A stretch of 64,000 nt of DNA from Owenia fusiformis (taxonomy: Eukaryota > Annelida > Polychaeta > Sabellida > Oweniidae), in contig CAIIXF020000002.1 in NCBI GenBank assembly GCA_903813345.2, positions 26,176,455 through 26,240,454 of the forward strand, given 5' to 3'. Under the pieces are notes generated by a model. That model saw only the letters and a program-made list of their open reading frames with translations, did not search any database and was not told the DNA's origin. Both the position numbers and the translations under genes were made by a program. This document shows positions 12,736 through 64,000 of this stretch, in pieces. Every line of letters begins with the position of its first letter. Positions within the stretch are counted from its first letter, which is position 1.

Positions 12736-12789
12736 CTCGTCTTTCAAATCGGTAAATAATAGGAATAGTTTGTCTATTGTTATGTTCCA

Positions 12790-12797
12790 TTTATATA
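12790..12797 (-). promoter_or_regulatory. TATA box of the MAM/C-type lectin gene
   Basis: On the minus strand TATATAAA lies about 55-60 bp before the ATG at 12735, so a start site near 12765 with a ~30 nt leader is expected. No splice site separates it from the ATG. Placement relative to the chosen ATG is the support. Confidence 0.5.
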
Positions 12798-12909
12798 TGC
12801 AAATTGTACAGTTTATCGCATTCGATCTGTCCAATCAACGTGCGATAAACCTTCCTGTTTGGCATCACGTGACTATTTTGATTCAATTCGATGAAAAGTT
12901 CGTATAATC

Positions 12910-30186: not shown

Positions 30187-31099
30187 CTATTTGTCATGTC
30201 TTGTTTTCAAACATTGGTCAACTGAATTCCAATAATCTGTCGTCCAAAAATTCGTATCGTGACACCCCCAAGCTGGGCCAGCAAACCAAAGCCTCGCATC
30301 TTCTTCACACGTAATGGCTGCTGGATTTCCCTTACGTGTACAAGCACCTCGATATCGGTTGAGATATTTCACAACACAGTGTCTTGAACATGCCATTGAA
30401 TCCCTTGCACACGCCTTCCAGGCTGAAACAAGATTTCTAAATAGGCTTCTCTTTGCGTGATGCTTGATTACTAATTCGATTTTTTAAAAGCATTTAGTGT
30501 ATCTAAACTGTAAGATCGCACACAAGCAATTCTCCTTCATGCGGATCCACGTGGAAAGTATACCAATGTGGTCTTCTCAATTATGTGGGTAAAACCCACG
30601 TGTTCCTAATTGCTTCCGCGTGGATTCGGGTGTAAATGTATTATACAAACCATTATAAAGAGTCTGCTATACAATATATACGCATACTTTGAATGTACAT
30701 GTCATGTCTTCTTTGGCTTTACAATTTTTTCTAATAATGAAACGAGGAATAAAAACGAGGAATAGCTATTGCTATAAGTATATTTATATATTACTTACAC
30801 CCCCCTGGCCTACCGCACTCGCTCCATGCAACGTAGCCAATGTTCATCGGTCCACACCGTTCAGTGCCTTCATCATCAACACATTTACCTAAGTTGGCCT
30901 CACACCCGTGTGCCTACCAAATATGAATAATCTGTCAGACACGTATACTAAACAGTGAACATAACGCTAGTTCTTAGTATAGGAGGGCGGTGTTTTTAAT
31001 CGTACGATTTTATGTCAAGAAACTCAATCTTGAAGCAATATAGAAACATACATAATACAAGCAGGCGTACCTCGCAAAGGCAATCCAAACACGGCGTTC
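30187..31099 (-). CDS. Gene A exons 16-18: second i-type lysozyme/destabilase domain and C-terminus
   Basis: Exons 31099-31071, 30913-30799, 30422-30187 (stop TAG), about residues 1209-1334. Motifs: [68 protein letters not shown]. The Asp is conserved (KCVDD). The Cys-to-Cys loop that normally holds the catalytic Glu is short (C-E-A-H-G-C), and no Glu sits at the usual place. This domain is close to the matching domain of gene B (for example both have [16 protein letters not shown]). Confidence 0.88.
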
Positions 31100-34000
31100 C
31101 TGAAGCAAAACCAGCATAGATTAATATTTTTCATAAATGTCAAATATACACTATTATCCCATACTTGGACGTGTTACAGGTACATAAAGCCGGTTTGTAA
31201 AAACTTTTATCGTATGATCTGTAAAATGAAGCCTTCTGATTGGTCAGTTCTTGTGCTGTACCAATCTGTATTGGTACTGAGATTGTCCCCATTGATAATC
31301 TCCGTCGCAATACAGAAAATATTGGTACGGAGGGAACAATCACAGTAGCAATACAGAGGATCATACGATAAAAACGTTATTGAATGATTTGAAGTGCAAT
31401 ACAGGATATATTCTGTCTCGATATTCTGTATTGGCACTCGACTTCGTCTCGTTCCAATACGGAATTTCTCGAACAGAATATATCCTGTATTGCACTTCAA
31501 ATCATTCAATAACTTATAATATTTTCATCAGCGGGCAGATATAGCTTTACGTCCCGCTCCGAGCGGGCAGATATAGTATATCTGCCCGCTACGTCACAAT
31601 CGCTACTCGCATATTTGTTCATAATTTGTAACGTTCGCGTAATGACTGTAAACGACAATGGAGAAAACACAGACAATCGGGATCTGTTTGATGGTTTAAA
31701 AAAGAGAAGGAGCATCAACTTAATCAATCAGAAATTTGGGAAAATAAATGTGGGAATATTTGAGAGAACAGGAAAATCCGCCCACGGGCCAAGAAAACAA
31801 AACTTGACATGAATATTCTAAAATATTTCCACGATTGAACAATGTTAACCAGATGACCAATATTGGTATGGGATAAACATATTATCCTATAGTCGGTTCA
31901 GGATATTGGGATTATCCCTTGGCCAATATAATATATTTTCCCTCGGGACCTGCGGCCCTCGGGCAAATATATTATATTAGCCTCGGGATAATCCCAATAT
32001 CCTGAACCTCATATAGGATAATCTCTATTTATTCAATATTGTAAAGGTAATTGTTCGATAATCGAAAATAAAATACTTATTTCAGGAAAGTGTAATTTCG
32101 ATGAAGACAAATCTTTAAATATATTCACATGTACGAGGAATAGGATTGATTTACCTCCGAAACAACTTCCAGATTCAATTTTTCTCCAATAGCTATCCAC
32201 ACCCGGAGCATGAAATCCACACGAACCAGGTGACTTAAAGAACCACATTCTAGATAATGAAGATACATTTTGCATGTTTTTTTCACTGTGCAAGTTCAAA
32301 TACTACCCTACATATATTGTAAATATTTAGCTACATGGAGGAACGAGACCATCCATATTTTTTTCGATTTGAAAAGCCATTATTTTTTATTGTTCTGATC
32401 AATATTGCGTTCATATCTCTAGGTCTCATTAGACCGATATACTGTATAAGTGGTATTTAATCCGAGTGGTTAATTTTCCGAATGGTCAAATTTCATCATT
32501 TTCCTAATTTTAATTTTCCTAATGACAAGAACCTCCCATTGGATAACATTATAAAAACAATATTTCCTACATTTAATTTTCCGAACCTGGCAAAAATTAG
32601 GAAATAGGCAAATTAAATGATTAGGCAAAATTACCACTTATACAGTATGGGTACTAACAATTCGCCAGGGTTGCCCATTTCATCTGGCAAACCAATTTGA
32701 CAGAACAAATACAGCTCTCGGCATCGGGCGGGATAAAAAATGAAAAATCATATTTATTGTATCTGTTGTCTTGGTGATAAGCCAGCTACGTCTATCAGCT
32801 TGTATTCGACGAATGTGCATTTAACATTTAAACCAACGTCTGTAATATTTGATTGCTAATGTCTACCTTGCAAGGTCTTCACAAACTTCATTCAGGGGAC
32901 AGTTTCCTTTTTGAGCATTCAAATAGTCTCGAATACAATGTCGGGAACATGAAGCATGTGTAGCACATGTTTTCCAATCTGCAATATGATAACAAATATA
33001 CAACTGTAGAGTATTACCAGTAATACAATAAATCATAAATGGCTTTCGAAATGTAACATGACTGGTTCTGGTGATTTGCATCCTCCGATCACAGGGCTTC
33101 AAAATCCAGAATATCTTCTTTCTTTTTACCCCCTGCTATAACCAAGTTGGACGCGCCCGATTAAACTGAATCACGTGATCTTATTATGCGCCGATGACGT
33201 ATACATGATTTCTGTCGCAGTGTTGCGACAGCCAATCAAATTGCGAGTTCTTAATCGGGGAAATGCTAACTGCTTATAGCAGGGGGAAGAAGGAGGTACG
33301 GATTCTGGACACCTGCTTAGGAGGCAGGGAGGATGGGTGATTTGTGGATCGCTGTGTGATTTATGGATCCTTTGGAAACGAAATACATGTGATTATATTG
33401 ACTTACTAAAACCAATCGATTCCCCATGTCTTTTACAGGCAATCCAGTCAGCCATTGATATGTCAAAGGGTCCACATCTTTCGAAACCGTTACTGTCTTT
33501 AAAACATTTACTCAAGCTACTAATTTGACATCCATTCACACTTGCCTTCAAAGGGTACATGCAAACTTGAATACAAGCAAGAGGACATAGATGTATAGGG
33601 TGTCAAATGAATATGTTCTCTCCCTTAGCTTTAACATCCACATAATGCAGAGGCGTAACCAGGTTTCAGTCAGGTGGGTGGGGGGGGGGGGGGTTATGCG
33701 ATCGCCCGGTTTTCAGCCAGGGGTGCAATTGTGGCATAAACAAGCCAAAAAATAAGTCTTATTTGTAATTTTATAAAAATTGATGCAGCTTCCTTCGAAA
33801 TTGAGCTAGCAGCTTCAAATAAAAAACATTTTAAAGCTCTTTTCTTCTTCTTTCTCATGCTCATATTTTATGGGGGGGAAGAGGAGGTGGGGGATCGCAC
33901 TTATCGCACCCCCCTGGCTACGCCTATGTAATGTTGCTTATTGTTTTGTCTGCATGATATCTGAATTGTCCCTTAGGACATTAGAACAAGTCTCCATGGA

Positions 34001-37000
34001 GCAACTCTACTATACGTATCAAATGAATACCTGAACTAAATGCACTTTTAAGAGGGAATGTATATTTATTTGACACCTTGTATATCGTGTTAAGTCACCT
34101 TAATAAATGCAAAATATGTAGTTTTCAAATGATATATCCTATATTGCAAAAAGCATGTTGCTCAACTTCAGTAAATTAAATATTGTGTTGTTTGTGTTTC
34201 TATACTTAAAGAACATTTTTATATATAAACCATGTTACGTAACCTAAATGAATGCAAAACATGTTTTTGGAGATGTTTGTTTCTTATCTTTACTAAAGTA
34301 ATATCACTTTCACTCAAATAATGCAAGACGCGATGTTTGCGTGTTATAATAAATGTTACTTCATCCGAACGTAAACATGTAAACCGAGTTGTTGTTTATT
34401 GTTGGATCATTTAACTTCAGGCATGCCAAGTCGCAATAATAAAAAAATTATACCTGACAAATACAATCCAAACACTCGTCAAAAGTTGTCCAGTCTGAAA
34501 TGCATGTGTCACATATCATTGATTACAGGAAGGGGCAAAGCGAGGGGAAGATCCAACATTTTGAGAACATATTCAAATCAAACAGCACGATAAATCAATC
34601 GGCATATTACTATAATTTAAAACATCATCTCCAATATTTTGCGATTCGTGCACATTTTGACTATTTTGTCATTCAAATAAAAATTATATAATTCTCAATC
34701 ACAGGAAATCTGGTTTTGGGAATATTGTCAAGATACTTACGTATTCCCCGTAATGTGTTAGGTCGAACAGTTCCAGGAAGTGTTGCTTTTGTCGTAGTGG
34801 GAGTCGTAGTAGGAGGGGTGGTGGTAGAGGTAGTGGTAGGGGTGGTGGTAGTAGTAGAGGTAGTGGTAGGCGTAGTGGAGACTGTAGTAATACGCCTAGT
34901 AGTAGTAGTAGTAGTAGTAGAAGTACTTTCAGTTGTTGTTGTATAACTTACAGTAGTGGCAATAGTGGCTTTGATCCACTTGATATAGATAAATACATGC
35001 GTGTAGACTCCGGCTTTATTTGGCACCCCGCATACAGACCCTTCCCCCCAACTTACTATACCCACTAACTTGTAGGCAGGATCCCTCCCGAACTGACACA
35101 TCAAAGGTCCGCCAGAGTCACCCTATATACGTATATTATTAAATAAAAATAGGTAAACGGGGATTAATCATGAATTTAATTTGATAAAAAATAAATGATT
35201 AAATAAGATACGTTGGAAAAAATCAATGTCCTTCTGCCTTATAATATTGGACTTTTACAAGTATCTAACAGGTTTCGCATTTTGAATGCTTTTTGTGCAA
35301 GGACCTTTTAGATTGAATTGGAGGTTTTGAATTAATTCTTATATTTTTATAATAAACGTTATTGAAACATTTTGTCAAAGTATCTCTGAAAATTGATATT
35401 GTTCTTGTAGTAGGTCATTTCATTAATCACATAACGTACACATTATTAGTAAGCACTGTACGTATATTAAGAATAGGCATACACCTAGCTAACGCAAACG
35501 CGGACTTACTGAGCAGGTGTCAATGTCTCCTTCCCAATAACCCCCACATAACATATTTTTTGAAATTGGAGTTTCCATCTTATTATTGCACACTCCTCTG
35601 TTTAACACAGGGATTTTCGCCTGTCGAAGTATGTCAGCTGATTCGTTTACATCTAAATGTAACCATGCATGTGTATTTTATTAAAGGTAGCACCAGAGAA
35701 CATTTGGGGTTCAGAGAGCTATTTGGGGTGATAAAATAGCAAATTAAGCAACATATAAACTTGACCTACCAACGTATTCTTTACGATCTTAAATGTAGAC
35801 ATTTCATATTCATTGTGCACAAATTGAGAAACATTTGGAAATTCACCATATTTGAAAAATGAAAACGTAAGTTTTCCTCAAAAGTTTGTACTATGGGTAT
35901 AAGTATAAGGTAGAAAGGTCCTATGGTGGCCGTGTGTTGGGCGCACGGTCGACTTGCGACTGCTCGCGGCAAAGGCCTCTCATGCGGCCGCCTTGCGTGC
36001 GTCTACCTTGGAATTGCTTTCTATAGGAAAACTACGTTCGCTTTAGGGAAGTCCTACACTGGTAGTTATCATTAAAGGTCGTACGGCTGACATAGCTTTC
36101 TGGTCTCCTCAGAATCGTACGAACGCCTTTGTAACTTTGAATGCTAAGGTATTCGGCCGTAGGAATGTTACTGGCCGCAGAAATGACATTTGGCCGAGGC
36201 TAAATGCTGCTTGGTTTATTTGATAATATCAACTTTTGAATTATGCTGCTTTTCACGGAAAAGAGCCGGGGTATTAGGCGAAAGTGAATAATTAACGTCT
36301 AAAGATAACATGATGTATGTTGAAACTGTATTTTAGGATATGAACTAAAATCAAAAATACTTACTTTGTGTAAAACCCCACCCCGTTGCCACACATACAT
36401 AATTGTCCCTTACATTTTGATCAGTCAGACAACAAGGCTGGACTTCATCTCCATATGTCATATCATCTAAGTGTATGAGGCAATTCTTTAAGCAATTACA
36501 TTCAGTATTAGGCATATAGTTCTCTATGCATGTTTCAGAGTGTTAGTTCACAATTGCGAATATGGAATGATAGATTGTTTACACTTCAAAATGCATTTCA
36601 AGCAGTCCTAAAACAGTTTTGGTTGCTTCAAAATCAACAATCTTTAATAGGATACAGCTCTTGCTTGTGGTATGTTAGCATTGCCATTGAACAAAAATAC
36701 AAAATTTAAATTTATCTTTTTATCTAGAATGTGGTTCTTTCTGTAGCTCGAGTAGCATCTTCCGACCAGGACTACATGACTTAGGCCTACACAAGGTCGA
36801 AAATAACAATAATACCAAATATATATATATTTACGCTACTGTTATACGAACTCGATAAATACTCACCTACTAAGTAAACAAGGGCTATGTCATTATCATA
36901 TGTTGCTGGATTATATTTGGGGTGTTGGATTATGCGTGCAACTTTAAAAACTTGCTCCGATGGTGCAGGGTCAGATCTTGAATGTGAACCAATATAAACC

Positions 37001-40000
37001 TTCAATTCTGATATGTCCTTCCTGAAAGTGAAAAATCATCGAAGATAACCATTAAAAAGAACATTTACTCAAATAACTTCCTGGGGTTTTCTCGTCGCAT
37101 TAACATATGATGACACAAAAAGGCGTTGTTACATTCAGATAACATTTTATCTGTCATATCACAAGTACAACAACACGCTGGGCACCATTGTGCAAATCGG
37201 ACCTTAAACGTCTGACGCGTGGATGATGTTATTGGTTACTTTCTAACTTTTGATTATAGTGCTAACAATGTAAACCACGTTTCCTTGCAAGCCCATTTTT
37301 ATTGATATAGTAGCTGTTTCAATTTCTATACCATTCATATAGCAAAGCATATGAAATTGTTTTGATATGGCCAGAGTTAATGCAGTGCTCATTTCTAGTG
37401 GGCTATCATATTAGTTTTTTAGATATCATTTAGGAAGTGATGCACCAACTCTTAGGTTTACATATGGCATGAGGAAAGAAGTTATGTAAGAAACACAAAA
37501 CCTGATTTTCTTTTCCAAATAGTTCTATGATTTAATTCTACAAAGTCTTTTATCTCATTCTAAGTTGACAAGAACTAAAACATTGTTTGCATTGAACGTA
37601 AAGATCAATTGAAAATGATGGTAGCCAATAAGAAATGAACACTGTATTTTGTAGTTTGATATGGTTAAGTATAATTACTTGACTTTTATGTTAGAAAAAA
37701 ACTTTCAGGGGCATCTGAAAGATTTTTGTAGCATTTAGGAAACGTTCTTGACTTGCTCCTCACTCTTCCCAGCCATTTTATCTTTTGGAAAATATATAAG
37801 TTTGAAAATGTTAAAAATAGTGATGGAAACAAATGCTCTTTATTGTGGGTACAAATATCTGATGTTTCGAGTATTGGTTCTCAATTTTTAATTTATTCTT
37901 CAAAATGTATTGTTTTGATTTCAGTATGAATGAAATTTCCATTTCATTCCACACTCTACTATACCTAGCCCCAAGAAATGCATAAGATACACTATTTGTC
38001 TAATTGTATTGCTTACATTTAACAGTCATCCGATAAATCATGAATAAGGAAAAGGAAAATAAAAACAAATAACATAATCATTACTAACAAGCCAAATGGG
38101 TTGCTCATGAACACCAAATGCAAGGTACAGTAGAGTGCATTATTGTCTTGGATTGTAATATAGGTACTTGGAATTGCTATGTTGATGATACACTGATTCT
38201 TTTCAAGTTGCATTATGATTCGGGCCGGGATAGTTTGAGTTTTTTTTTCTTATGACTGATGTACTCTTAGATGTTTTATTTTCCATGCTGTGTTCTGATT
38301 TAAAGAAAGGATATTTTAAGTTCATTAATCAAAAACACATTGTATAGGAGGTAATGTATAATAGTACAATTAAATAATATATAAGCACTAGGGCCAAAGG
38401 GAAAGGTGTTTTGGGATACAAGCTATTTTATCCATCAGTATTATACTGGCATAGTTCTTAATTTAAAATTAATATTGTAAAGCAAATACAAATATATAGT
38501 CATTATCTACCATTAGTTAAAGATAACATTAGTCTGTAGGACAATTAATAGTCACTGGGGTATAAATGCAAAGTATCATTTTATGGAATCCTCAGTACCT
38601 TCTCCATTTCTATAGATTCCATATGACAGTGCAATAATAGTTTACATTCTTGCAGGGAATTTAAATTAGATTTAAAAGTTGGCCTTACCTGGGCCAAAAG
38701 CAATGTGCCGCTGAGATGATAATTCGTTTTTTGAATATGCTTCCACCGCAAATATGCAATTCCCTGTATGTTATCCGGGCCATCCATGGCCAACTATGCG
38801 GAAATGCAGGCTGCCCTCCTACTATCCTACCAAACGCCGGTTTATTAATTTGTAATCCACAGTTAGCGTTCTCGGCCGTGGCTCTCACTTCTGAAATTAA
38901 AAGTCCATGGCGTTCAGTTAATGTAATTCTTTATCACAAACGCGCATCAGTATCGTAATGTTTAAGAAAATGTACATATTTGCAAACAAATAGTTCAGAA
39001 GACAACAGAATCGTCGATTTAATTCCTCACTTAAGTAACGTAAACGGAACTCAAAAACAGTTAAGATCTGCACGTTGATCCCTTTACATTTACGTATAAC
39101 AATAGTGAGGAATTCAATCGACGATTGTCGTCCGTCTTATTTGTTGGCAAACATGTAAATTTTCTAAAACATATGATACTGATTCACGGTTGTGATAAAT
39201 TCTGCCTAAAACGCGTGAAATAAGAAAAAAAGAAAAATCGTATTTTCGACGTTCTGACATGTTGTTCGTTTCGGTAATCAGCGTGATCGAGTGGATCACC
39301 AGTGAGGATGTTCTTAGAGATAATAGAGTCAGTTATGTTGATCATGCTGTGAAAGCAAGAGAACAGAAGTTGTAGCAAAATTAGTTATACTGATTAAATC
39401 CCCGGGTATTTGTATAGCATGGTGTTTAGTCAGATGTACAATAAACGATTAACGTTTTTATTGATAATAAGTCGTCGCTGTATGTGTTAACGATAATTAT
39501 AGCAATTTATCTTCTTACGTACTTTGGCACTTTTTCATTACTTCATTTATCTCCGCCTGGTTCAAACTTTCTTCAAAAAACTGAATGCACGTGAATCTTC
39601 CGTCAAAGAATGCATTATTCTGCAGTGTTTTACCAAGAAACCCTGTGCCAGATATAAGTCCTTTGACAGTCAATAAACTCTGCATTGTAACCTGTTCACC
39701 ATCAACGTACAACGATGCTTCACCCGTGTGTCCATTGTATGTGAATGCGATGTGATACCAAATATGCTCTTTAAAAACAGATTTCCCTTGGAATTTCTCT
39801 ATCTTGATTGAGTCCATCTTTCTGGTCTGGTCAAATTCACCGAACCTCACAAAAATAACACCACCTTTTAGAATCCATATATGAAAACCAACCGTGTCAA
39901 CAGTAGAGAAGTCAACTACGGGACTATCATCTACCAAAGCCTCGATATATATGCAACCGGCGAAAGTCAAACGTTGATCAATCCGTAGAGATGGAATCAT

Positions 40001-43000
40001 TATGTATGTAGTTATTTCTTTGCCACTTGGAAAACGAATCTTGCCAGTTTTCATTGAACCCTTCTTCTCGTTGGTGATTCCATCGGCAAATTTTGCGAAA
40101 TATGATGTGGCGTGATTCCCATTGCCACTCATATCCATTTGGCCATTTTGTTTGTCGAAGAGCCAGGACGCAATAAGATTAGCTATAATAAAAGATTTAA
40201 AAAATGTGCGCAGTTGTCCAATTCAATTTATATTAAGCATCCTCCTAAGCAGGTGTCCAGAATCCGTACCTCCTTCTTTCCCCCTGCTATAAGCAGTTAG
40301 CATTTCCCCGATTCATGTATACATCATCGGTGCATACTTAGATCACGTGATTCGGTTTAATCGGGCGCGTCCAACTTGGTTATAGCAGGGGGTAAAAAGA
40401 AAGAAGATATTCTGGATTTTGAAGCCCTGTGAGCGGAGGATGATATTATATTAAGGGAATATCTATTGTTTCAAATGTAAGACATAAAAGGAGATACAAG
40501 TACTACTGGAATTCAATGAGCTGCTTAGTAAGCAGAAGAGATGTAAAAAGTACAGTACTTCAAACAGTAAAACACACCTTGAATACACCGTCCCATCGCT
40601 GTCAAGATGCCAGTCTCGTTAAGAGCTACTGTGTATGCACTGACGCAAGCAAATAGCATACGTGTTACATCGCCTCCCGTTACTGCTTTACCCAATAAAA
40701 TTTGTTTTGAATCTGTCAAAACATTTCCTTTCAGCTGTATAACTTTCTCTTGAAGGAGTTCACCATTGATGAATTGCTTCATACTTTTTGTTTTCGCATC
40801 AAAGGAGAAACTAATGTAAAGCCATTGCTTGTGGACAAATATGCTATCTTTTGACCTTAACTCGTATGTATCGCCCGTAGATGTCGTTATGGTAGTTATT
40901 AGCTTTGCACTTATCATCTTTATTGATACCATCTCCTTGTTGGTTGTAGATGCATCCAATATATAACCATTCAATTGCTTCCTTCTAGGGCTCACGTACA
41001 GCAACCATGTGAAACTACCATCAAAACTCAATAATCTATTTTGATTTTGAATCCTGAAATAAAACACCATCATGCTAAGTATGGGATGGCTAACGGGAAT
41101 GCTATACCCCGTTTATGTATTTGGCTACCAAAAAGCCCCTTTAGGACCACGCGTTTACCGATTTATGTTTGGAGATCTAAAGCAATTGATCAAGTATAAT
41201 ATGCAAACATGAACAGGCTTTTTAATGGCCTGTGATCATCCTCATCCGATCACAGAGCTTCAAGATCCAGGATATCGTCTTTCTCTTTCCCACATGGGGG
41301 GAGGGGCTATGGATTCATGTGATCTCAGGTTGTTCCGTGTACGGATGAGGAGTGTATGCATTGCCATTGAAAAGTCTATAGTTAACGTATCAGTATCTAG
41401 GAAATGAATCTAAAACAACAATCAGGTAACAATCTACAATCACATGATTGTATTATTTTAAACGAAGACAAATATATTTGAAATATTATAACACGATTTT
41501 TTCATTGTAGGTTCAGTAATATTGTAATTGTCAATTTTACTTCAGTAATGTAATTGTCAATTTTACTTCAGTAATGTAATTGTCAATTTTACTTCAGTAA
41601 AGTAATTGCCAATTTTACTTCTGATCAGTAATGTAATTTTCATTTTTACTTCAGTAATGTAATTGTCAATTTTACTTCAGTAATGTAATTTTCATTTTTA
41701 CTTCAGTAATGTAATTTTCATTTTTACTTCAGTGATGTAAATGTCAATTTTACTTCAGTAATGTAATTTTCATTTTTACTTCAGTAAAGCATTTGTTAAT
41801 TTTACTTCAGTTATGTAATTGTCAATTTTACTTCAGTAAAGTAATTGTCAATTTTACTACAGTAATGTAATTGCCAATTTTACTTCAGTAATATAATTGT
41901 CAATTTTACTTTACTAAAGTAATTATCAATTTTACTTCAGTTATGTAATTGCCAATTTTACTTCAGTAATGTAATTGTCAATTTTACTTCAGTAAAGTAA
42001 TTGCCAATTTTACTTCTGATCAGTAATGTAATTTTCATTTTTACTTCAGTAATGTAATTGTCAATTTTACTTCAGTAATGTAATTTTCATTTTTACTTCA
42101 GTAATGTAATTTTCATTTTTACTTCAGTGATGTAAATGTCAATTTTACTTCAGTAATGTAATTTTCATTTTTACTTCAGTAAAGCATTTGTTAATTTTAC
42201 TTCAGTTATGTAATTGTCAATTTTACTTCAGTAAAGTAATTGTCAATTTTACTACAGTAATGTAATTGCCAATTTTACTTCAGTAATATAATTGTCAATT
42301 TTACTTTACTAAAGTAATTATCAATTTTACTTCAGTTATGTAATTGCCAATTTTACTTCAGTAAAGTAACTGTCAATTTTACTCTGAACAAGCTACATAT
42401 TCTCCTTACGCAATTGATGAATCACTCGCCGTCGATACCTGGATCGCATCCTGCATCCCTCCTTGAACCCCGTCGCCGTATTTGATTGAGTTCAGAACAG
42501 CATCTTCAACTTTAACTGTGCTACCCGTTGAAGGGTTGTGAAAATGTTCTGCAAAGTTCTTTCCTTGGTCTTGTCTATTTAGCGGCCAATATCCAACATG
42601 AGATGCTATAAAGCAAAATGTTCTAATTAGTTCCAGGGTCATCATAGATTTTGATTTGTACATATGAAGCAACAGATCGAGAGATATTCATAACATACAA
42701 GACATGCTTACATTTAAATCATGCCTTTTATTTATTGATTATAGGTATTCTTTAGAACAGTTAACACTATAATTGAATTGAATTAAATGCATCTGTAATT
42801 CCCGATGCCTCAGTCATATTTGCTCTACGGCGACCATGTGTCGACCATAATTTCCAGAAATCAGTAAATTCTACTGAAACCGTAAAAATGAATGGTCTAA
42901 ATACGGCATTTTCAGTCTTTATATGCTGTAGAGTCGCCATAGAAGTTTTAACTTGTATAGATTACTTGTTCTTTATTACAGTCACCAGAGGAGTTAGATA

Positions 43001-46000
43001 AACCGTAGCCAAACATAGGAAAGATTCCACTGTAGCTTTCTGTCTTCACGAAATCAAAATACGCCGTACAGCTACCGTAGCAAATGGAACTGCTAAAATA
43101 TCTGGCCCTAGAGTTTCCACGGCAACCGTAGAATGGCGGGCGTAAAACTAAAACATCGTACGGACGTACGATTTTGGTTTTAGCTGTCGCATGCTACGGT
43201 TGCTATGAGACGTATTTTAAATTTGTCGTGACAGAACATCTGCAGTCAACGTACGACCTTAAGAGAGATGAGCTACGGTTTTCTGAGCTTGCCCCTACGG
43301 CGGGAGTGAATTTGACAAATACCAAGGCAGACAAACTGAAGAATTTTACATGACATTTACTTACAAAAGGGAAGACTTATTCAAAAATAGTACTCGGTAT
43401 ATAGTATCAAGTAGAACATCAACCCCTTACGTAAACATTTCGTCTCTGCTTCATCGCCTATATCTGCAGGTGCTGTTATGTCAAAGCGGGAACGCCCAAC
43501 CAGTTTGAATCCGGGTTTGCACCATACAACAAAAGTACAAGGAGTATCACCTTCACCGACAAATCCATTTTCGGGCGCCTTTGGTTTTTCAGCAGGAGAC
43601 GTGGCGTCTTCTACGAAACAGGATGAGTTCATTTGTAAAATATCTGCATTTTCCATAAGATTTGTGTTTTATTTTATTTTATTTTTCTAGGATTTAATAG
43701 TGTTTTTATATGTTCCACCAAATAATCAGAATCATATAAGGCAGCAATGAATGTAAATAAAACTATGAGCATTTTACTCGATTGTTAAAAGTTATTACAC
43801 AAACTTTTTGCTCATTTGGCAAGGACACAATTTTGAGATGAAACACTTTTTTCAAACTTACCAACACAAGACCTAATACCAGGTAATCCAGGGATTCCTT
43901 GTACAGTGTTCTTTATCAATATAATGTTCGATTTCCATTCCTTTGCGATAGATTTCAGATTTTTGACACACTTGGTCCATGACTTCAAGTTCCTCTTTTC
44001 TTTTCGAGGGATCTTCTTCTTCCACTTTTTAAGAACGCCGTTAAAAATGTCAGATTTTGACAATATACTCTCGGTATTTTCCAAGTTTTTATTTTGTTTA
44101 TAAAAATTATGATTTTGAACTATAGATTCCAAGGGATTTAATAAATTGTATGCATCAGATTCCATATCAGAGTCGCTAGAATCGGAAGCTATAAATCGTT
44201 GCAAGGATGTTTTACACTTTTGAAACTGTTTTTTGAATGATTCGAACAGGTCTTCATTGGCTTGAATTTTTCCTATGATAATATTAATATCAATCTTTAT
44301 GGTGTTGAATGTTCTTTTATAGGTTTTCATCATTGGCACCTTATATATACTATCAACTCTGGATTTCATAGATTCCAAAAATATTTTGAGTTGGCTATCG
44401 GTATGCATATTGAAAATATCGTCATCGTCCTTGACTTCATCTATATCGACTTTGAGCTGTGTAAACACGCCGAATGCCTGCTCCATGGACATTGGTTGTG
44501 TCCGTGCCACATTGGTACATATGCAAAGTAGCAATAACAAAGCAACTGTGATCCCACCTCCTAAATAAAAAGCATTTAATTTATCATAGTACTACAACTG
44601 TAGTATTAGAACACAGTTTGCCTTTACGTTAAGTTTAAATAGCACATCGATAGAAATATCAACATATCTCCAAAATGGCAATACAGTCAGGTTCAGTAAC
44701 CAAGTTCACATTCGAAATTCGTATGTTCATCAATATTTACTAAGAATGGTGCCACGATTGAAGTAAACCTCTTGGATATTATTTTCAATATACCAATCAG
44801 CAAACGTGTCAATGATAATTTTGATGTTCTGTTACATATTGGTGAAGTAATTTTGAAGGTATGGCCTAAATTTCCCATATGTCCCTGTATATATACCCCC
44901 TACTTCAAAAGATGTATGTTATTTGTCATTTTTTATCATGAACCAACCATATTATGTATTTTTTCTTGTTTACATATAGAATGAACTTTCTGTTTTTGAA
45001 TATAGACAGATGGTACTGTATTTATTTTTCATGATATGGAGCAAACGAAGGCGTGTCAATTAACCCTGTTATATCCTACATACTTATATTTCAAGGGTAG
45101 TTTTGAAGAATAATCAAGAAAATCAATGTTTTCAAATAGATTTATCCTTGTCAAGGAAGGAAAATGAGGATATGCGGTTTGAAAAACTAACACCATGTTT
45201 CAAGTTCTTACAATTTTTGGTTGAAGCAATTATTTTGAAAGTTGTAATTTTGAATGTAATCTCCTACTCAATGAAAATAGTTGATATTTGTGAAGTTTTT
45301 CTTTCGGAATACATTGCTCGATTACAGAACCTTGCCTTGTTCTAGATGCACGAAAGGTGTATTGTTAATACTTGACGTCGTTCGGATATTTGGATGTGAT
45401 TGACGTTTTCCTTAATCTCCTACCACTGTAACTTCCAACTTAATTTTTGAAAGCCAAATATGATAGTCACGAATTGAGATTTAAGTCACACGTTGATGCA
45501 TACATCATATGTGTACATTAACTGTCGAATACACGCCGACTTACATTTATATAAATATCCAAAGTTTATCTCAAATCATCAATGCTCGAAACGGTTTATC
45601 ATTTAACCTGGCGAGTCTAATGTTTCATTTTTAATTTATGATTATGGTATCGGATTTGAGTATGATTTTAGATGAGGCTCAAACAAATCAATGAAGTTGC
45701 ATGAAACCTTTTGTGAAAATTCGAACGATTTTTCAAGAACCCTCCTTCAAAAGTGTTACCAAAGTGCTCCCCTGGAATGGAAATGTCGTCTTGTGCAATC
45801 AAAATAAATGGCGGGTGGTTTAAATTTGTTCTTGAGTTTATAGCTTACATCTCTAAATTTCAAAACATATCGCCTCATTGAAAGGCACATGCAGTTTTTG
45901 GCGATCTATAATTGTCGACTCATGTTTAAAAGCCATGAAAACAAGGTTGATCGTTAAACATTGACCCAGTTACTGTCTATTTATAATGGGATCACTGAGA

Positions 46001-46866
46001 AAAATATTATTAATAACTTAAATCGTTAACATTTATGTTGTATTCCAAGAAACTTATCAATTTAGAAATGCAAAATGTTCAATTATAAAAATGGTACATG
46101 TAGAGAACAATGTTTACAAAATTATCTAAAACAGAGATATTTAACATTCGTTGGCATATGTGTCAGTGAGTAAATAAGAAGAATATGCTTTTGATTCTAT
46201 ATCTTGTCCCCAAAGGAATTTGTTTATGAGCGGTATACCTTAACGTACTTTTATCATCCCGAACTCAAACATTTCGAATACTTATTTCGCGAACGCTTCG
46301 TTGAGAATGGATTCCAGATGTACTCAAAATTAATACGTTATAATGTGCATCATCTTAGTATCCACCGCACTAATTATTTTGGAAATCAAAGATGTACGAT
46401 TTTTGAGTCAACGTGTGATATGAGAATGGATTGTTTCTTTATACTTAGAACTGTAGAATCATATTTTGGGATATTTCGGGTTGGTTTTCATTATGACAGG
46501 ATGTTCAGATTTCCTGTTTGGGGCATACTCAATATTTCAAATATCTAATAGCAGACAAAGGCATCTTATGTCAAACAACAAAGAGATTTGCCCCAAGTCT
46601 CATACTCGCCTCTTGGGGAATAGGGTAGAAAACAATACATTCTATGTAAATAAATATTATTCATATATACATTTGCAACGAAAACCGTCCATTTTTGAAG
46701 TGGCATAATCTTGTTAAAAATATACATCTTTCCAAATCGGTTTACTATACTGTTTTAGATATTATATCTTGTGATACAATTATCGGTGATAATCGAATAA
46801 GAAATGCGTTAATTTGTTAATTAAAATGATATTAGGCTATATTGAGTTTTACTTACTCTTCTTCAT
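30187..46866 (-). CDS. Gene A: secreted LamG-LamG-trypsin-(Thr linker)-lysozyme-lysozyme protein, 1334 aa, 18 exons
   Basis: Exons: 46866-46857, 44560-43862, 43643-43431, 42605-42410, 41053-40578, 40182-39523, 38890-38689, 37021-36867, 36466-36365, 35652-35510, 35122-34741, 34494-34454, 33545-33407, 32978-32867, 32249-32155, 31099-31071, 30913-30799, 30422-30187. They total 4005 nt, every junction GT-AG with matching phase and no stop, which is strong evidence for one chain. Domain order: signal peptide ([19 protein letters not shown]), helical N-domain, sushi-like module, two LamG domains, trypsin-like protease with activation site, Thr-rich linker, two i-type lysozyme (destabilase) domains. 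The protein should be secreted as a zymogen. An immune or digestive effector is inference. Gene B has the same protease-to-lysozyme exon plan. Only RNA data can exclude alternative shorter transcripts. Confidence 0.85.
31200..32030. repeat. Cluster of long palindromes in a gene A intron
   Basis: At least four inverted repeats lie in the intron 31100-32154. (1) TTATCGTATGATC near 31208 with GATCATACGATAA near 31350. (2) A perfect ~41 bp arm starting GTTATTGAATGATTTGAAGT at 31377 and ending with its complement near 31513, loop ~55 bp. (3) AGCGGGCAGATATA/TATATCTGCCCGCT at 31563-31592. (4) TTCAGGATATTGGGATTATC at about 31898 with GATAATCCCAATATCCTGAA ending near 32007. No transposase is seen. Several short MITE copies are the likely source. 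Confidence 0.8.
32155..34494 (-). CDS. Gene A exons 12-15: first i-type lysozyme/destabilase domain
   Basis: Exons 34494-34454, 33545-33407, 32978-32867, 32249-32155, about residues 1080-1208. Motifs in order: [49 protein letters not shown]. These match invertebrate-type lysozymes, which cleave peptidoglycan and, in leech destabilase, also isopeptide bonds. The Asp three residues after the conserved Cys is kept (KCFKD), but the position of the catalytic Glu is Val (C-Q-A-S-V-N-G-C). Muramidase activity is therefore doubtful; binding may remain. Confidence 0.85.
32439..32648. mobile_element. MITE, ~210 bp
   Basis: ATACTGTATAAGTGGTA at 32439 and its complement TACCACTTATACAGTAT ending at 32648 are terminal inverted repeats. 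The interior is AT-rich, with CCTAATTTTAATTTTCC and GGAAAATTAAAT-like subterminal blocks. It lies in the gene A intron between exons 14 and 15. Confidence 0.8.
33080..33335. mobile_element. MITE family X, copy 1
   Basis: Ends CATCCTCCGATCACAGGGCTTC and GGAGGCAGGGAGGATG. Subterminal CCCCCTGCTATAACCAAG and CTTATAGCAGGGGG pair as inverted repeats. About 80% of it recurs in opposite orientation at 40238-40442, and a shorter relative lies at 41238-41352. In the gene A intron between exons 13 and 14. Confidence 0.8.
33594..34084. mobile_element. MITE with a second MITE nested inside
   Basis: Outer ends TATAGGGTGTCAAATGAATAT (33594) and ATTTATTTGACACCTTGTATA (to 34084), with AGAGGGA-type continuation on both arms. 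Within it, 33651-33925 has its own ends AGGCGTAACCAGG and CCTGGCTACGCCT plus G-rich subterminal tracts, so the inner element inserted into the outer one. Both are in the gene A intron between exons 12 and 13. Confidence 0.75.
34741..38890 (-). CDS. Gene A exons 7-11: trypsin-like serine protease domain plus Thr-rich linker
   Basis: Exons 38890-38689, 37021-36867, 36466-36365, 35652-35510, 35122-34741. Activation site A-F-G-R|I-V-G-G (R773-I774), with Cys762 before it able to tether the propeptide. Triad: His814 in SAAHC, Asp863 in DNDIALV, Ser955 in GDSGGP. Asp949 in IDTCSGDSGG corresponds to residue 189, so cleavage after Arg/Lys is expected. VSWGEG is present. After K-W-I-K the chain becomes a ~70-residue Thr/Pro/Ser run (codons at 34954-34760), likely O-glycosylated, then T-L-R-G-I leads into the first lysozyme exon. 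The family cuts extracellular substrates; the target is unknown. Confidence 0.9.
34760..34954 (-). repeat. Coding (ACN)n repeat: Thr-rich linker of gene A
   Basis: ACT/ACC trinucleotide runs encode a Thr/Pro/Ser linker between protease and lysozyme domains. Purine-pyrimidine strand bias makes the complementary Val-rich frame (34716-34946, +) open by chance. Gene B has a linker about half as long (60852-60765). Confidence 0.9.
37952..38137. mobile_element. MITE family Y, copy 1 (gene A intron)
   Basis: Terminal inverted repeats CACTCTACTATACCT and AGGTACAGTAGAGTG. The interior contains ATAAAAACAAATAACATAAT and GCCAAATGGGTTGCTCATGA. A second copy with the same interior occurs at 57323-57539 in gene B. 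It lies in the intron between gene A exons 7 and 8. Confidence 0.85.
38946..39184. mobile_element. Foldback MITE, ~240 bp
   Basis: ATCAGTATCGTAATGTTTAAG...ATCGTCGATTTAATTCCTCAC on the left pairs with GTGAGGAATTCAATCGACGAT...TTCTAAAACATATGATACTGAT on the right. It lies in the intron separating the second LamG exon from the first protease exon of gene A. Confidence 0.8.
39523..40182 (-). CDS. Gene A exon 6: second LamG (concanavalin-like) domain
   Basis: One exon, about residues 532-751. It has [50 protein letters not shown] (shown in parts: W-Y-H-I-A-F-T-Y-N and L-Y-V-D-G) and a closing F-T-C-I-Q-F. These are the standard strands of a Laminin_G_3 fold. The exon ends KKCQ-A|GTACGT in phase 1 and joins the protease exon at 38890. 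Confidence 0.8.
40238..40442. mobile_element. MITE family X, copy 2 (inverted relative to copy 1)
   Basis: Starts CATCCTCCTAAGCAGGTGTCC and ends GAAGCCCTGTGAGCGGAGGATG. The body matches 33080-33335 in reverse complement, including CCCCCTGCTATAAGCAGTTAGC and AATCGGGCGCGTCCAACTTGG. In the gene A intron between exons 5 and 6. Confidence 0.85.
40578..42605 (-). CDS. Gene A exons 4-5: first LamG (concanavalin-like) domain
   Basis: Exons 42605-42410 and 41053-40578 encode about residues 308-531. They open with H-V-G-Y-W-P-L-N, the usual start of LamG/pentraxin-like jelly rolls. [31 protein letters not shown] and K-Q-I-L-L-G follow at the expected spacing. The intron between the exons is filled by a tandem repeat array. 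Role: probable carbohydrate or protein recognition. Confidence 0.75.
41238..41352. mobile_element. MITE family X, short related copy
   Basis: CATCCTCATCCGATCACAGAGCTTC with AAGATCCAGGATATCGTCTT follows the order of copy 1, then is truncated and closes with CGGATGAGGAGTG. In the gene A intron between exons 4 and 5. Confidence 0.6.
41515..42385. repeat. 26 bp minisatellite with ~395 bp higher-order repeat
   Basis: About 33 tandem copies of CAGTAATGTAATTGTCAATTTTACTT with variants (TTTTCATTTT, GCCAATTTT, AAAGTAATT). A marked variant, ACTTCTGATCAGTAATG, occurs at about 41616 and 42012. The same order of variants follows both, so a ~395 bp block was duplicated as a unit. The array stops about 25 bp from the donor of gene A exon 4. 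Confidence 0.9.
43431..43643 (-). CDS. Gene A exon 3: sushi (CCP)-like module
   Basis: Encodes about residues 237-307 with four cysteines: [24 protein letters not shown] and ETKCL. The C.PGF.L.G block, the preceding P-E-N-G-F and four-cysteine spacing fit a short complement-control (sushi) module, but it is atypical. Both boundary introns are phase 1, as is usual for this module type. Sushi modules in secreted proteases commonly mediate binding. Confidence 0.6.
43862..44560 (-). CDS. Gene A exon 2: signal peptide core and helical N-terminal domain
   Basis: Encodes residues 4-236. After the hydrophobic core and likely cleavage near ART-QP come about 215 residues that are Lys/Asp/Glu-rich, predicted mostly helical, with four cysteines (F-Q-K-C-K-T, S-W-T-K-C-V-K, R-S-C-V and the leader) and an acidic Ser-Asp patch ([12 protein letters not shown]). 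It ends with a short G-I-P-G-L-P-G-I stretch. I do not recognise the domain. Being in frame with the rest, it may serve oligomerisation or anchoring. Confidence 0.75.
44561..46856 (-). other. Gene A intron 1 (2.3 kb), no other gene seen
   Basis: Bounded by A|GTAAGT at 46856-46855 and TTATTTAG at 44562-44561. ORFs at 44772, 45103, 46204 and 46466 have no motif, splice partners or consistent codon use. An enhancer role is possible but nothing in the sequence shows it. Confidence 0.5.
46857..46866 (-). CDS. Gene A exon 1: start codon exon
   Basis: ATG AAG AAG A|GTAAGT. Only ten coding bases, chosen because joining them to the exon at 44560 yields [16 protein letters not shown], a textbook signal peptide, whereas that exon alone has no ATG before its hydrophobic core. 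A two-codon upstream ORF (ATG CCA TAA) overlaps this start: its stop TAA shares bases with the ATG. Confidence 0.65.
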
Positions 46867-50700: not shown

Positions 50701-51621
50701 AGTGATACATGCGTGAAGACTTCAGCTTTATTTTGCATCCAGCATTTAAGCCCTTCTCCCCAGCTTACTAATCCTACTAGCTTGTAGTTAGGGTCATTCC
50801 CAAACTGGCACATTAAAGGTCCACCACCTTCACCCTATATAAGTACATTAAGGAATAAAATGAAAAGGTATTGACATACACAAGTGTTTTATATAGACTA
50901 TATATCTATTGGATAGCCATGTCAAACCAAATTGAGCATACCACATGGTTACGTGTTTAGATTGAGTACTGAGGCATATGAGAAAATCAGCTTCGAATCT
51001 GAACATTCGCGGTATAACAAATGCGATAAATTGTAACTTTTGTTTTTTCATGGAGGAATCCTCATTTAATTCAACTTATCTGCGTCTCTTTTGAAATATA
51101 CCTGCTGTCACATTCATTCTGAGTGAACGTGAGATTTTGAGTTATTTCTTGTATATTTTATTGATAGCTGTCTCATCCACTTAGGATTCTGAATGCATTT
51201 ATTATCAAAATGAATTTAACATGATTACAACTGTTTTACATTTTAAACATCTACATGCATGCCACTGCTTTAAAGTTGTATTGCATTATTGGAACATTCT
51301 GTTTAATGACCCTTGCTCAAACAAAATAAAATCCTGTGCTTTGGTTTATGTAAAAAATCAGTCCACCACTTGGATGTACCCGTAAATGTAGCAGAAGTTT
51401 TTACTGTCTGTCCTTTTATCATTTTTTGTGAATATTCTCAGAATCGACCAACAACCAACATAAACGCGGATTTACTGGGCATGTGTCAATGATGTTTCCT
51501 TCCGAATAGCCCCCACATATCATATTTTGAGTAATCTGAGCCCTCATCCTGGATTTGCACAATCCTTTGTTCATCACAGGGATTTTCCACTGCCGAAGTA
51601 TGTCAGCTGATCCGTTAATAT
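47755..51621 (-). pseudogene. Decayed protease copy between genes A and B
   Basis: Exon 51621-51476 is still open and parallels gene A exon 10 (S-A-D-I-L-R-Q, M-I-C-G-G-Y, I-I-D-T-C; one extra codon). The next exon begins at 50834 with [12 protein letters not shown], so both Asp194 and the catalytic Ser195 of GDSGG are changed to Glu and Gly. It stays similar through LVGLVSWGEG and FTHV, then loses similarity near 50700. A remnant of the Thr-linker exon (with GTAGTTGAAGTGGAGACTGG and TTGATCCATTTTA blocks) is at 47755-47860. No His or Asp exons, LamG or lysozyme exons are found. A catalytically dead relic. Confidence 0.8.
48528..49380 (-). pseudogene. Frameshifted transposon-derived gene relic with zinc-finger-like end
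   Basis: Three adjoining minus-strand frames without introns. 49380-49105 is basic (R-E-K-N-N-K-A-S-R-E-Y-R-A-R). 49013-48789 contains R-E-L-S-C-Y-C-D-A-C...C. The stretch 48650-48520, in yet another frame, reads C-x2-C-K-A-C-G...W-I-K-C-S-K-C-H-D-W-F-H...C, a PHD/zinc-ribbon-like end. Similar cysteine clusters end many DNA-transposon proteins of invertebrates. Frame changes mean it is broken. Family unresolved. Confidence 0.4.
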
Positions 51622-52164: not shown

Positions 52165-53079
52165 ATATCTCAAGCCACACTATGCGCACTAGTATTTTCA
52201 ACATTTTTTGGCAAAATAAAGACTTGCTTTTGAACTTCATAGTATTTCAAATGGATTGGCGAGTACTTTATCTTTCATTAGACATCAAAAACAACTTAAA
52301 CGGGCCACTTTATTAAAATATTTTTGATAGTTTTTTATATATCAAGTTTTTACAAATGTCACTTAAAGATGGCGAAGTTGTTTGTAGTACATGATTCCTT
52401 TTTTTATAGAAGTGTCGCCATCTTTTAAATCAAGAGTTATTTAAAAAAACATGCAGTTTGTCAAAAATGTGCACGCACTACTTAAGATCTCTGAACTTCA
52501 AATGCTATTTTCTATGCGAGTTATTTTTTTCTCTGTTCAATATATTAATGCATGTCAAGCTTTGTATCATATTTGATTGAGTGTGTAAATAACATGTTTC
52601 AAGGATTATTTTATCGTTTATGCTTCTAAATTAAGCATAGTGGATCTTTAACGCTACAAATGATCAATTAGTGATAATAATTAAGATTCATAGTGCAAGT
52701 GCAAATACTGGTAAAACATCTCCCAAATAATGAACAAGATCACACCGTCAAAAAACGTTCAAAATGTCCGCCAGAAAAATATGGTTGCGTAGAAGTTAAT
52801 CAGCTCTAGAACTTGATATCCTCTACTATATTTCGTTACAGTTTGTTCCCGCTAGCTATAATTTTTGCTTTTACAGTATTTCCCCCTTTTATTGTGTTAA
52901 AAGCTCAAATATTGCATTTGCCGGGGTCTTAGTACCTGTAGGGGCCTCTATTTTTGTTTCTTGAAATTGTTTTCTTTATAAATGTACGTTCCTTCCTTAC
53001 CGGCACCGTTGAGTAATCTAAATAATCCATTTATTGGTGCTAATCTCATAATAATGCTTCTGTATTTGACAATCACAAA

Positions 53080-53490
53080 GATCTTAGGCTATGTAAAGTT
53101 TAACTTTCTTTTACTCATCGCAGTTTCTAACTTTTCCTTGAAGATATTAGATGTTCTTCCGATGTCTGGCCGTTGAGTTTGAAAATGCATGTTTCAGAAC
53201 GTGACTAAAATCAAGTAAATATAACGTACAACTGAACAATGTCAAGTAAATGTTATTTTAAAATGACTTTTACGTGCGTTAATGTATTCAACATTTTATA
53301 TTTCTGTTTACACAGCCTTCTCATTCAGAAATAATACAAAATGGGTGACACAATTGAAAAAATAATGATATATTAATTTATGAATACAGTGTATCTATAA
53401 ATCATGTTTCTGAGGTTAACAGGTTAATATGTATATTTCTTATAGTTTTCATTATCAGTTAGGGAGGGGGTATCATGTTTCTATGGCATA
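53080..53490 (-). pseudogene. Decayed copy of the gene A 5' end and upstream region
   Basis: Runs parallel to 46845-47240: TTTTCCTTGAA.AT.TT.GATGTTC, then AACGTG.C.AAA.T.AA, AAGTAAATNTTAT, ACGTGCGT.AATG, and TCAGTTAGGGAGGGG.TAT.ATGTTTCTAT occur in the same order. The start-codon exon equivalent has lost AGAAGA (ATGA followed by GTAAAA), so it cannot code. It lies upstream of the decayed protease fragments, as expected for the 5' end of that pseudogene. Confidence 0.7.
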
Positions 53491-54906: not shown

Positions 54907-55891
54907 CTACTGTTTCCCTGATCTTGCCTCTAAACAATGTTCCACTCTCTCCCAATATTCCGTCGTCCATTTTTGCATATCTTTGCATCCATTAGTTGGC
55001 CCTGCAAACCAGAGTCTTGCGTCTTCCTCACAAGTAATGTCAGCTGGATTTGACTTCCTTGTACAGTCTCCACGATATCTGTTGAGATATTTCACGACAC
55101 AGTGCCTTGAACACGCCATCGAGCTCATTGTGCATTTCTTGAAATCTGAAAACAGTGAATCATGTATTAAAAACTTATAGCAGGCTAGTAAAATTTATCA
55201 TAACAAACCAATTTCAATTTTATATGCCTAGGAAAACTTACGATATTGGCCTAATTGGTGTAAAAATTTATATTCCCATATACATTCATATGATGCCATT
55301 TAAGTATAGGAAAGATATTTCAAATACTAAATAATTGTAACCATATTTACCACCCCCTGGTCGTCCGCATTCTTTCCATGCTTCGAAACTGATCTGCATT
55401 GGTCCGCAACGCTCCACTCCTTCATCGATAACACATTTTCCTAAATTAGTCTCACAGCCGCTTGCCTAAATATCAATTTCATACAAAAAATTTACTAAGC
55501 ATCGGCATTAAGACAAGCATCTCCGATGGAAAATATTGCACGATTTGCATCAGAGACGCTAAAGATTGACTCATGTAAGGGTATGTTGATTTATAATTTT
55601 CATGATTATTGAAAATTAATCATTAAAGATGAAATAGTAAACAATGTCGTTGTAATATTTTTATATCGAGATGTGCTCCCTCTGATTTACGCCAACATTT
55701 TCGAGTCATAAAAGGTCCACTCGTCTCTTAAACGATCGGGTTGAATGTTGCCACTGATACGTTGATACGCTGTTACCATAGCTACTTCATGTACATCTTG
55801 TTTCGTGTCGTGATATTTTTCTAATTACAATTTTGGAACACCTTATATAGAATAATACTTACGTGGCAAATGCAGTCTAAGCACAGCGTTC
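54907..55891 (-). CDS. Gene B second i-type lysozyme domain and C-terminus
   Basis: Exons 55891-55863, 55465-55351, 55145-54907. Motifs: [71 protein letters not shown]. The short loop C-H-A-S-G-C lacks the catalytic Glu, as in gene A domain 2, while Asp is kept. It ends about 22 residues after the last Cys-containing helix, without an anchor. Confidence 0.88.
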
Positions 55892-63909: not shown

Positions 63910-64000
63910 CTAAAAGAGATGCATAGACATGATTCTTAAGATTTAAAAATATTCATTTTTTGTGTTATGCTTAACCATACCATCCCGTCTTTAGATTTAC

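Follow-up and report, generated by a model that had tools for sequence, protein, structure and literature searches.

What does a gene encode in which exons for laminin G (LamG), trypsin and invertebrate-type (i-type) lysozyme domains follow one another on the same strand? The question is raised by a stretch of 64,000 nucleotides from the annelid Owenia fusiformis (C2:26176455-26240454 in contig CAIIXF020000002.1; hereafter the window), which forms part of a searched genome of 498 Mb in 525 contigs. The gene concerned, gene 1, occupies positions 46866-30187 of the minus strand. Judged from its sequence, its product is a trypsin zymogen of modular build whose tail, unusually, consists of two lysozyme-like domains, and this sequence is already deposited under another label.

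Gene model and deposited sequences

Gene 1 was modelled by joining the minus-strand open segments via their splice sites, which gives 18 exons with GT donors and AG acceptors at all 17 introns as rebuilt from the DNA. The coding sequence of 3972 nt, including the stop codon, runs from an ATG at 46866 to a stop ending at 30187 and specifies 1323 residues. In one continuous frame these form a signal peptide, a helical domain, a sushi-like module, two LamG domains, a trypsin domain, a Thr-rich linker and two lysozyme-like domains, distributed over the exons as follows.

46857..46866, minus strand: exon 1, start codon and first signal-peptide residues
43862..44560, minus strand: exon 2, remaining signal peptide and N-terminal helical domain, residues 4-236, no Pfam family
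43431..43610, minus strand: exon 3, putative sushi-like module, residues 237-296
42410..42605, minus strand: exon 4, LamG domain 1, first part
40578..41053, minus strand: exon 5, remainder of LamG domain 1, to residue 520 (Pfam)
39523..40182, minus strand: exon 6, LamG domain 2, residues 521-740, a single exon (Pfam)
38689..38890, minus strand: exon 7, propeptide with C751, activation site R762|I763 VGG, His803
36867..37021, minus strand: exon 8, trypsin, catalytic Asp852
36365..36466, minus strand: exon 9, trypsin, C872 as likely partner of C751 (putative disulphide)
35510..35652, minus strand: exon 10, trypsin, Asp938 (S1 pocket)
34741..35122, minus strand: exon 11, catalytic Ser944, end of trypsin, Thr-rich linker with RGI at its end
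34454..34494, minus strand: exon 12, start of lysozyme-like domain 1
33407..33545, minus strand: exon 13, lysozyme-like domain 1, Asp46 kept, no Glu before GC
32867..32978, minus strand: exon 14, lysozyme-like domain 1
32155..32249, minus strand: exon 15, end of lysozyme-like domain 1
31071..31099, minus strand: exon 16, start of lysozyme-like domain 2
30799..30913, minus strand: exon 17, lysozyme-like domain 2, Asp46 kept, His at the catalytic Glu position
30187..30422, minus strand: exon 18, end of lysozyme-like domain 2 and stop codon

Intron 4 contains a tandem repeat at 41523-42383, with 32.7 copies of a 26-bp unit.

The gene 1 protein is identical, letter for letter and over 100% of its length, to the deposited Owenia fusiformis protein P0001, which is labelled 'Acrosin'. 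A search of approximately 5.8 billion proteins yielded 12 at E ≤ 0.001 among 6955 candidates, including, besides P0001, one paralogue, P0002, which is 53% identical and carries the database label 'lysozyme'. The remaining 10 of these 12 proteins cover 18-22% of the query, with no destabilase domain in their Pfam lists. PMC9977687 describes an Owenia fusiformis annotation, from which P0001 may derive, that drew on splice junctions from RNA-seq, on Trinity assemblies and on Augustus and PASA for a genome of 505.8 Mb, with RNA-seq support for 31,678 of 31,903 transcripts; the RNA-seq of this species (project PRJEB38497) spans nine adult tissues as well as stages of development.

Domain assignments and the protease

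Pfam searches with the whole gene 1 protein identify a trypsin domain of the S1A family at residues 763-991 (PF00089, E 1.6e-62), two stretches of Laminin_G_3 (E 1.5e-22, 80.8 bits against a cut-off of 27.6) and two stretches of Destabilase (PF05497, E 2.1e-23, 83.2 bits against a cut-off of 26.2), all of them well outside what chance would give; on the single open reading frames (ORFs) the two Laminin_G_3 matches score 55.5 and 36.4 bits. No Pfam family matches the N-terminal helical domain, either on single ORFs or in the whole protein. NCBIfam gives no match. The sushi-like module has no Pfam match in gene 1 (E ≤ 1), nor in gene 2, gene 3 or the C11 gene described below; in P0002 it matches a complement-control protein weakly (E 0.036) when compared with a PDB set. 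The single secreted protein of LamG, trypsin zymogen and two i-type lysozyme domains proposed in a preliminary description of this locus is thus borne out by the 18-exon reconstruction, the Pfam assignments and the identity to P0001, including its paired LamG domains, its trypsin domain and its paired destabilase domains, while its sushi-like module is left with the weak PDB match.

The protease is intact by sequence, with the triad H803 (AAHC), D852 (DND) and S944 (GDSGGP). A basic residue precedes the IVGG motif at the activation site R762|I763 VGG, and D938 occupies the Asp189 position; the triad, activation site and Asp189 are present in both gene 1 and P0002. The preliminary description had picked out the same residues as R773, His814, Asp863, Ser955 and Asp949, with numbers each 11 too high relative to P0001, an offset consistent with a different splice choice upstream. 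These features support the assignment of gene 1 as encoding an intact trypsin-type zymogen. Asp938 predicts cleavage after Arg or Lys, and self-activation of the zymogen is therefore possible. By analogy with chymotrypsinogen-type zymogens, a disulphide between C751 and C872 (C712 and C837 in P0002) probably holds the protease to the front half of the protein after activation. The Thr-rich stalk that follows the protease is probably O-glycosylated.

A tandem paralogue and a remnant third copy

Gene 2, which encodes P0002, lies upstream of gene 1 on the same strand. Its 3′ end is at 54910, and its first mapped residue (residue 3) lies at 73470, outside the window.

54910..64000, minus strand: gene 2 (P0002), part within the window; the 5′ part continues to 73470 beyond it
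63909-63749, 63003-62902, 62611-62469 and 61023-60747, minus strand: gene 2 protease exons
58064-58024, 57151-57016, 56575-56464, 56219-56125, 55891-55863, 55465-55351 and 55145-54910, minus strand: gene 2 lysozyme exons

P0001 and P0002 align across all domains and have the same architecture, and the intron phases are equal at all 16 mapped junctions (exon 1 of P0002 is unmapped). The peptide RGIHWT.FD.CLDCIC, which spans the protease-to-lysozyme intron, is conserved between the two proteins. Over 1236 aligned codons the proportions of synonymous (pS) and nonsynonymous (pN) differences are 0.73 and 0.28, and pN is lower than pS in each of nine segments, a comparison that indicates direction only, as synonymous divergence (dS) approaches or exceeds saturation in several segments. 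The values are 0.75 and 0.23 (pS and pN) for the trypsin domain, 0.64 and 0.26 for lysozyme-like domain 1, and 0.67 and 0.19 for lysozyme-like domain 2, which is 71% identical; the highest pN (0.47) is found for the helical domain. Because P0002 shares both plan and phases, silent sites are near saturation and the protein is conserved, the full architecture predates the duplication that gave rise to genes 1 and 2 and has been retained under selection; the fusion is old and has been kept.

Between gene 1 and gene 2 sits a dead third copy, represented by the following pieces.

51476..51616, minus strand: exon-10-like protease piece, DNA 78% identical
50705..50834, minus strand: exon-11-like piece without the catalytic Ser, GDSGGP having become GEGGGP
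53025..53214, minus strand: duplicate of the exon 1/upstream region 46774-46968, 69.5% identical, which may represent the 5′ end of the third copy

Weaker matches between the genes comprise short exon pieces (E 0.03-0.08), a linker-like stretch (E 0.40) and 47854-47745, which is 68% identical to the Thr-rich part of exon 11 and is possibly a simple repeat. Two non-matching introns, of gene 1 (37951-38137) and gene 2 (57323-57539), share a sequence that is 73% identical (E 8e-39), probably a dispersed repeat.

Active-site residues of the lysozyme-like domains

The lysozyme-like domains were aligned to leech destabilase and Tapes lysozyme. Residue roles in destabilase are given in PMC10126035, including the Glu34/Asp46 pair and, for isopeptidase activity, Ser51-His112-Glu34 (or Ser49/Lys58). 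Asp46 is kept in all four domains of genes 1 and 2. In domain 1 of gene 1 (CICQASVNGC) neither Glu nor Asp occurs between CIC and GC, and in domain 2 (CLCEAHGC) the site of the catalytic Glu is taken by His, a Glu standing two residues earlier; the Glu34/Asp46 pair of an active i-type lysozyme is incomplete in both gene 1 domains, which keep the Asp but have no Glu in place. In gene 2, the catalytic Glu is likewise out of place in domain 2 (CICHASGC), while domain 1 (CICEASENGC) is ambiguous, with a Glu one residue off the aligned place, where the aligner put a Ser. The isopeptidase residues of destabilase are replaced in all four aligned domains, Ser51 by Arg, His112 by Trp, Ser49 by Phe, Thr or Val, and Lys58 by Ser or Gly. 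An active destabilase is unsupported for gene 1, with its catalytic Glu out of place and its isopeptidase residues replaced. Because the catalytic Glu is gone in gene 1, the tail of its product is more likely to bind than to lyse; one domain of gene 2 may keep some muramidase activity.

As a control, eight loci were read from a destabilase search of the genome, in which two of the 15 exon matches listed are genes 1 and 2. L001 and L002 keep E34, D46, S49, S51, K58 and H112, L003 keeps E34, D46, S51, K58 and H112, and L004 and L005 keep the Glu, Asp and His with an Arg at 51. L006 (on C12) and three tandem L007 copies (C77:13217-16982) are closely similar stand-alone i-type lysozyme genes with ASGC, RCGP, a Tyr at 112 and no catalytic Glu in place. 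L008 contains stops and was left unclassified. In an unrooted tree of 15 domain rows, drawn at its midpoint, the order is the fused domain 1 pair, the fused domain 2 rows, L006/L007, L004/L005 and the canonical enzymes. The separating branches are supported at 90/93 and 92/94, under the program's mark of 95/80, which is reached by two of 12 inner branches, and the placement of three long rows, those of P0002 domain 1, L003 and Tapes, is unsure. The tree can be read as indicating that Owenia has i-type lysozymes of a non-canonical kind, a domain of which became joined to the protease, the Glu having been lost before or after the fusion. An internal duplication as the origin of the two lysozyme-like domains, to which their shared phases 0 and 1 might point, is not shown, since stand-alone lysozymes share the phase-0 intron.

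Modular assembly and the wider LamG family

The seven domain-boundary introns of gene 1 (signal|helical, helical|sushi-like, sushi-like|LamG1, LamG1|LamG2, LamG2|protease, linker|lysozyme 1 and lysozyme 1|lysozyme 2) are all of phase 1, compared with four of the ten introns within domains; with boundaries assigned by the analyst, P = 0.017 for this outcome given 11 phase-1 introns among 17. PMC3927616 presents class 1-1 modules, moved via intronic recombination, as one generally accepted origin of such proteins.

Searched with the sushi-LamG-LamG part, the genome yielded 16 exon matches, grouped as nine loci (20 of 20 candidates scored), and downstream DNA was read at seven of these, the weakest two, C4 and C5, being excluded. 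Trypsin follows LamG at six of the seven loci read and lysozyme domains at two. In a genome search with the whole protein, 35 of 1009 candidates were scored, mostly trypsins besides the cluster, so that further relatives are possible. The genome-wide destabilase search listed no match on C4, C5 or C11. Upstream of gene 2 lies a third gene.

C2:26251941-26259926 (mostly L010), upstream of gene 2: gene 3

Gene 3 contains a helical-type ORF, a sushi-like ORF, a LamG-like ORF (tblastn E 1e-7, no Pfam hit) and a second LamG (Pfam, 3.5e-21). Its first trypsin domain has AAHC, DNDIA and GDSGGP, but no basic residue preceding VSGG, and its second trypsin-like domain, with AASC and GDGGVP, is a pseudoprotease. 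At the 28.34 Mb locus of C11 (C11:28332000-28351999; L026, L027) a helical ORF, a sushi-like ORF and two LamG domains are followed by an array of sushi exons, in which all nine ORFs tested match Sushi in Pfam, one of them below the cut-off (E 0.034); no protease was found within approximately 10 kb past the LamG. At the other three C11 loci, read downstream with home-made profiles, LamG is followed by trypsin exons, with second-trypsin exons in one and no lysozyme within 10 kb. Gene 3 and these three loci resemble gene 1 in having a LamG exon, then trypsin exons, with a phase-1 donor after the LamG exon, but differ in having no lysozyme in the DNA read and in possessing a pseudoprotease (gene 3) or a second protease (one C11 locus). 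By codons read by eye, all five loci inspected for it offer such a donor, and so do genes 1 and 2. The helical ORF of the C11 gene scores 8.2 bits with a P0001/P0002 profile, more than all 100 shuffles (hhalign probability 2.4%, E 0.019), whereas homology fails for gene 3, whose score is equalled or exceeded by 89 of 100 shuffles (hhalign 0.3%). Because of these profile scores, the assignment is weak for the C11 gene and the helical ORF of gene 3 is placed by position only.

The tails seen on LamG fronts comprise a protease with a lysozyme-like pair, a protease with a pseudoprotease, two proteases, and a long sushi array. A speculative and rather unlikely extension of these observations is that the LamG pair, with the sushi-like and helical domains in front, would be an exchangeable recognition chassis whose tails are swapped through phase-1 introns, and that the non-catalytic lysozyme pair of genes 1 and 2 would be a peptidoglycan sensor, bringing a trypsin zymogen to bacteria independently of peptidoglycan recognition proteins (PGRP) and C-type lectins.

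Comparison with known systems

Trypsin zymogens that combine a modular build with recognition domains are known from complement (MASP/C1r), horseshoe crabs (Factor C) and insects (ModSP). Gene 1 resembles them in its secreted-type product, with recognition modules before an S1 protease and activation at a basic residue. The resemblance is in plan only; gene 1 differs in having two LamG domains and a helical domain in front and two lysozyme-like domains behind. Leech destabilase (PDB entry 8bbu; PMC10126035) resembles the tail in its cysteine pattern and Asp46 (E 2.9e-23 with the P0002 tail), but is a stand-alone protein whose Glu34, Ser51, Lys58 and His112 are replaced in genes 1 and 2, except for the ambiguous Glu of P0002 domain 1. 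Ealb-iLys, an SH3b-i-type lysozyme of enchytraeids and earthworms, is likewise an annelid multi-domain i-type lysozyme. As described in PMC11083476, it differs in comprising an SH3b and one destabilase domain in 230 residues, with no protease and with the muramidase Glu/Asp kept.

In a search for tail relatives of 689-2193 residues, which reaches only relatives sharing exact five-residue words, five of 67 candidates reached E ≤ 0.01, namely P0001, P0002 and P0013-P0015. The last three likewise carry several destabilase-type repeats in one long protein, but differ in having three repeats (by eye), long linkers, and no LamG or trypsin in their Pfam lists. A Dockerin label on them suggested cellulosome proteins; this was dropped, as the sequences read as multi-domain i-type lysozymes and the label is probably spurious. 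The front half as query returned only P0002 (one protein at E ≤ 0.001 among 7596 candidates), in a search whose length range excluded P0001 itself and which therefore says little on longer fusions. A word-based literature search covering few subscription journals found no paper joining destabilase, trypsin and laminin G, nor PF05497 with PF00089, nor LamG with a trypsin domain and invertebrates, and a wider search found no such architecture in the titles and abstract starts among the matches listed. The preliminary description had regarded the combination as undescribed; this holds for the literature searched, while the sequence itself had already been deposited as 'Acrosin' and its paralogue as 'lysozyme'.

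Possible functions

The gene 1 product is tentatively interpreted as a surface-binding, tethered trypsin zymogen with a binding, lysozyme-derived tail, most likely used in surface-triggered defence; this is the preferred reading, held with some reserve. In such a mechanism the front half, and perhaps also the lysozyme-like tail, would dock the protein onto a glycan-bearing surface, after which a trypsin-like protease, possibly the gene 1 protein itself, would cut R762|I763. The C751-C872 disulphide and the C-terminal stalk would then tether the protease and confine proteolysis to the bound surface, with the lysozyme-like domains acting as binding modules that no longer cut. The target of the tail could be a bacterial glycan, as in defence, or the worm's own tube or mucus. 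Several points weigh against this interpretation. Glycan binding by the gene 1 LamG domains is assumed from their family, the surface target, the immune role and autoactivation are all inferred, and the loss of the canonical Glu, with Asp46 kept throughout, does not prove the absence of every activity.

Owenia is a tube-dweller. It is possible, if doubtful, that the protein is secreted into the organic tube, where the LamG and lysozyme-like domains would bind polymer and the protease would process or guard the matrix. The Thr-rich linker would suit a mucus-like secretion. In the tube proteome of Paraescarpia echinospica, as given in PMC8476170, LamG proteins are listed as chitin-binding and lysozyme makes up 9.45% of total abundance, and because the tube of another annelid holds both, this reading stays open. 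However, the Paraescarpia LamG and lysozyme are separate proteins rather than fused, and a regulated cascade is at least as good a fit for a zymogen protease that is intact.

A digestive enzyme, in which a gut-secreted protease is combined with bacteria-digesting lysozyme domains, was allowed for in the preliminary description but is decidedly unlikely. I-type lysozymes are digestive in clitellate annelids according to PMC11083476, but the catalytic Glu is out of place in both gene 1 domains. Large modular zymogens with recognition domains are, moreover, usually regulatory and not digestive.

Slightly more improbable still is an effector that recognises, cleaves and lyses, its lysozyme domains hydrolysing peptidoglycan or isopeptide bonds via a shifted active site. 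The Asp46 common to all four domains and the displaced Glu of P0002 domain 1 (by one residue) and gene 1 domain 2 (by two) would be compatible with this, and protease action is possible for insect i-type lysozymes according to PMC12766996. That insect activity, however, relies on the Glu/Asp pair, which gene 1 lacks; domain 1 has no Glu in the stretch, domain 2 has His at the site, and Ser51 and His112 have become Arg and Trp in all four. Of the recognise-cleave-lyse (or recognise-cleave-bind) scheme in the preliminary description, the lytic version is thus unsupported for gene 1, and binding fits better.

That a LamG-protease gene was merged with an adjoining lysozyme gene during prediction is hardly credible and was rejected: the evidence for the fusion consists of predicted gene models, and mispredicted domain architectures are a known problem in animal proteins (PMC3927609), but P0002 repeats the whole plan and the intron phases, the junction peptide is conserved, and neither of lysozyme exons 12 and 16 carries its own start codon or signal peptide.

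Neighbouring features of the window

Two minus-strand ORFs lie at 8698-9006 and 12001-12834. One matches C-type lectins weakly, falling just short of the cut-off (E 2.2e-4), and the other, upstream of it, is of coiled-coil type and by eye begins like a signal peptide; the two possibly form one coiled-coil lectin gene near the cluster. On the plus strand, an ORF at 19825-20562 is rich in Gly, Met and Arg (GGMRGGMGGG), with nested tandem repeats and no Pfam match, and an acidic ORF at 26860-27933 contains PPCEGDDC repeats, with no family above the cut-off.

Implications

The database labels 'Acrosin' and 'lysozyme', which hide the architecture of P0001 and P0002, are corrected by the present analysis. 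If the preferred reading of a binding tail is true, a lysozyme would have been put to new use in targeting a protease, and a single animal would possess a small family of proteins with a similar LamG front and different tails. This leads to a testable question, namely whether a pair of i-type lysozyme domains without the catalytic Glu binds peptidoglycan and localises proteolysis.

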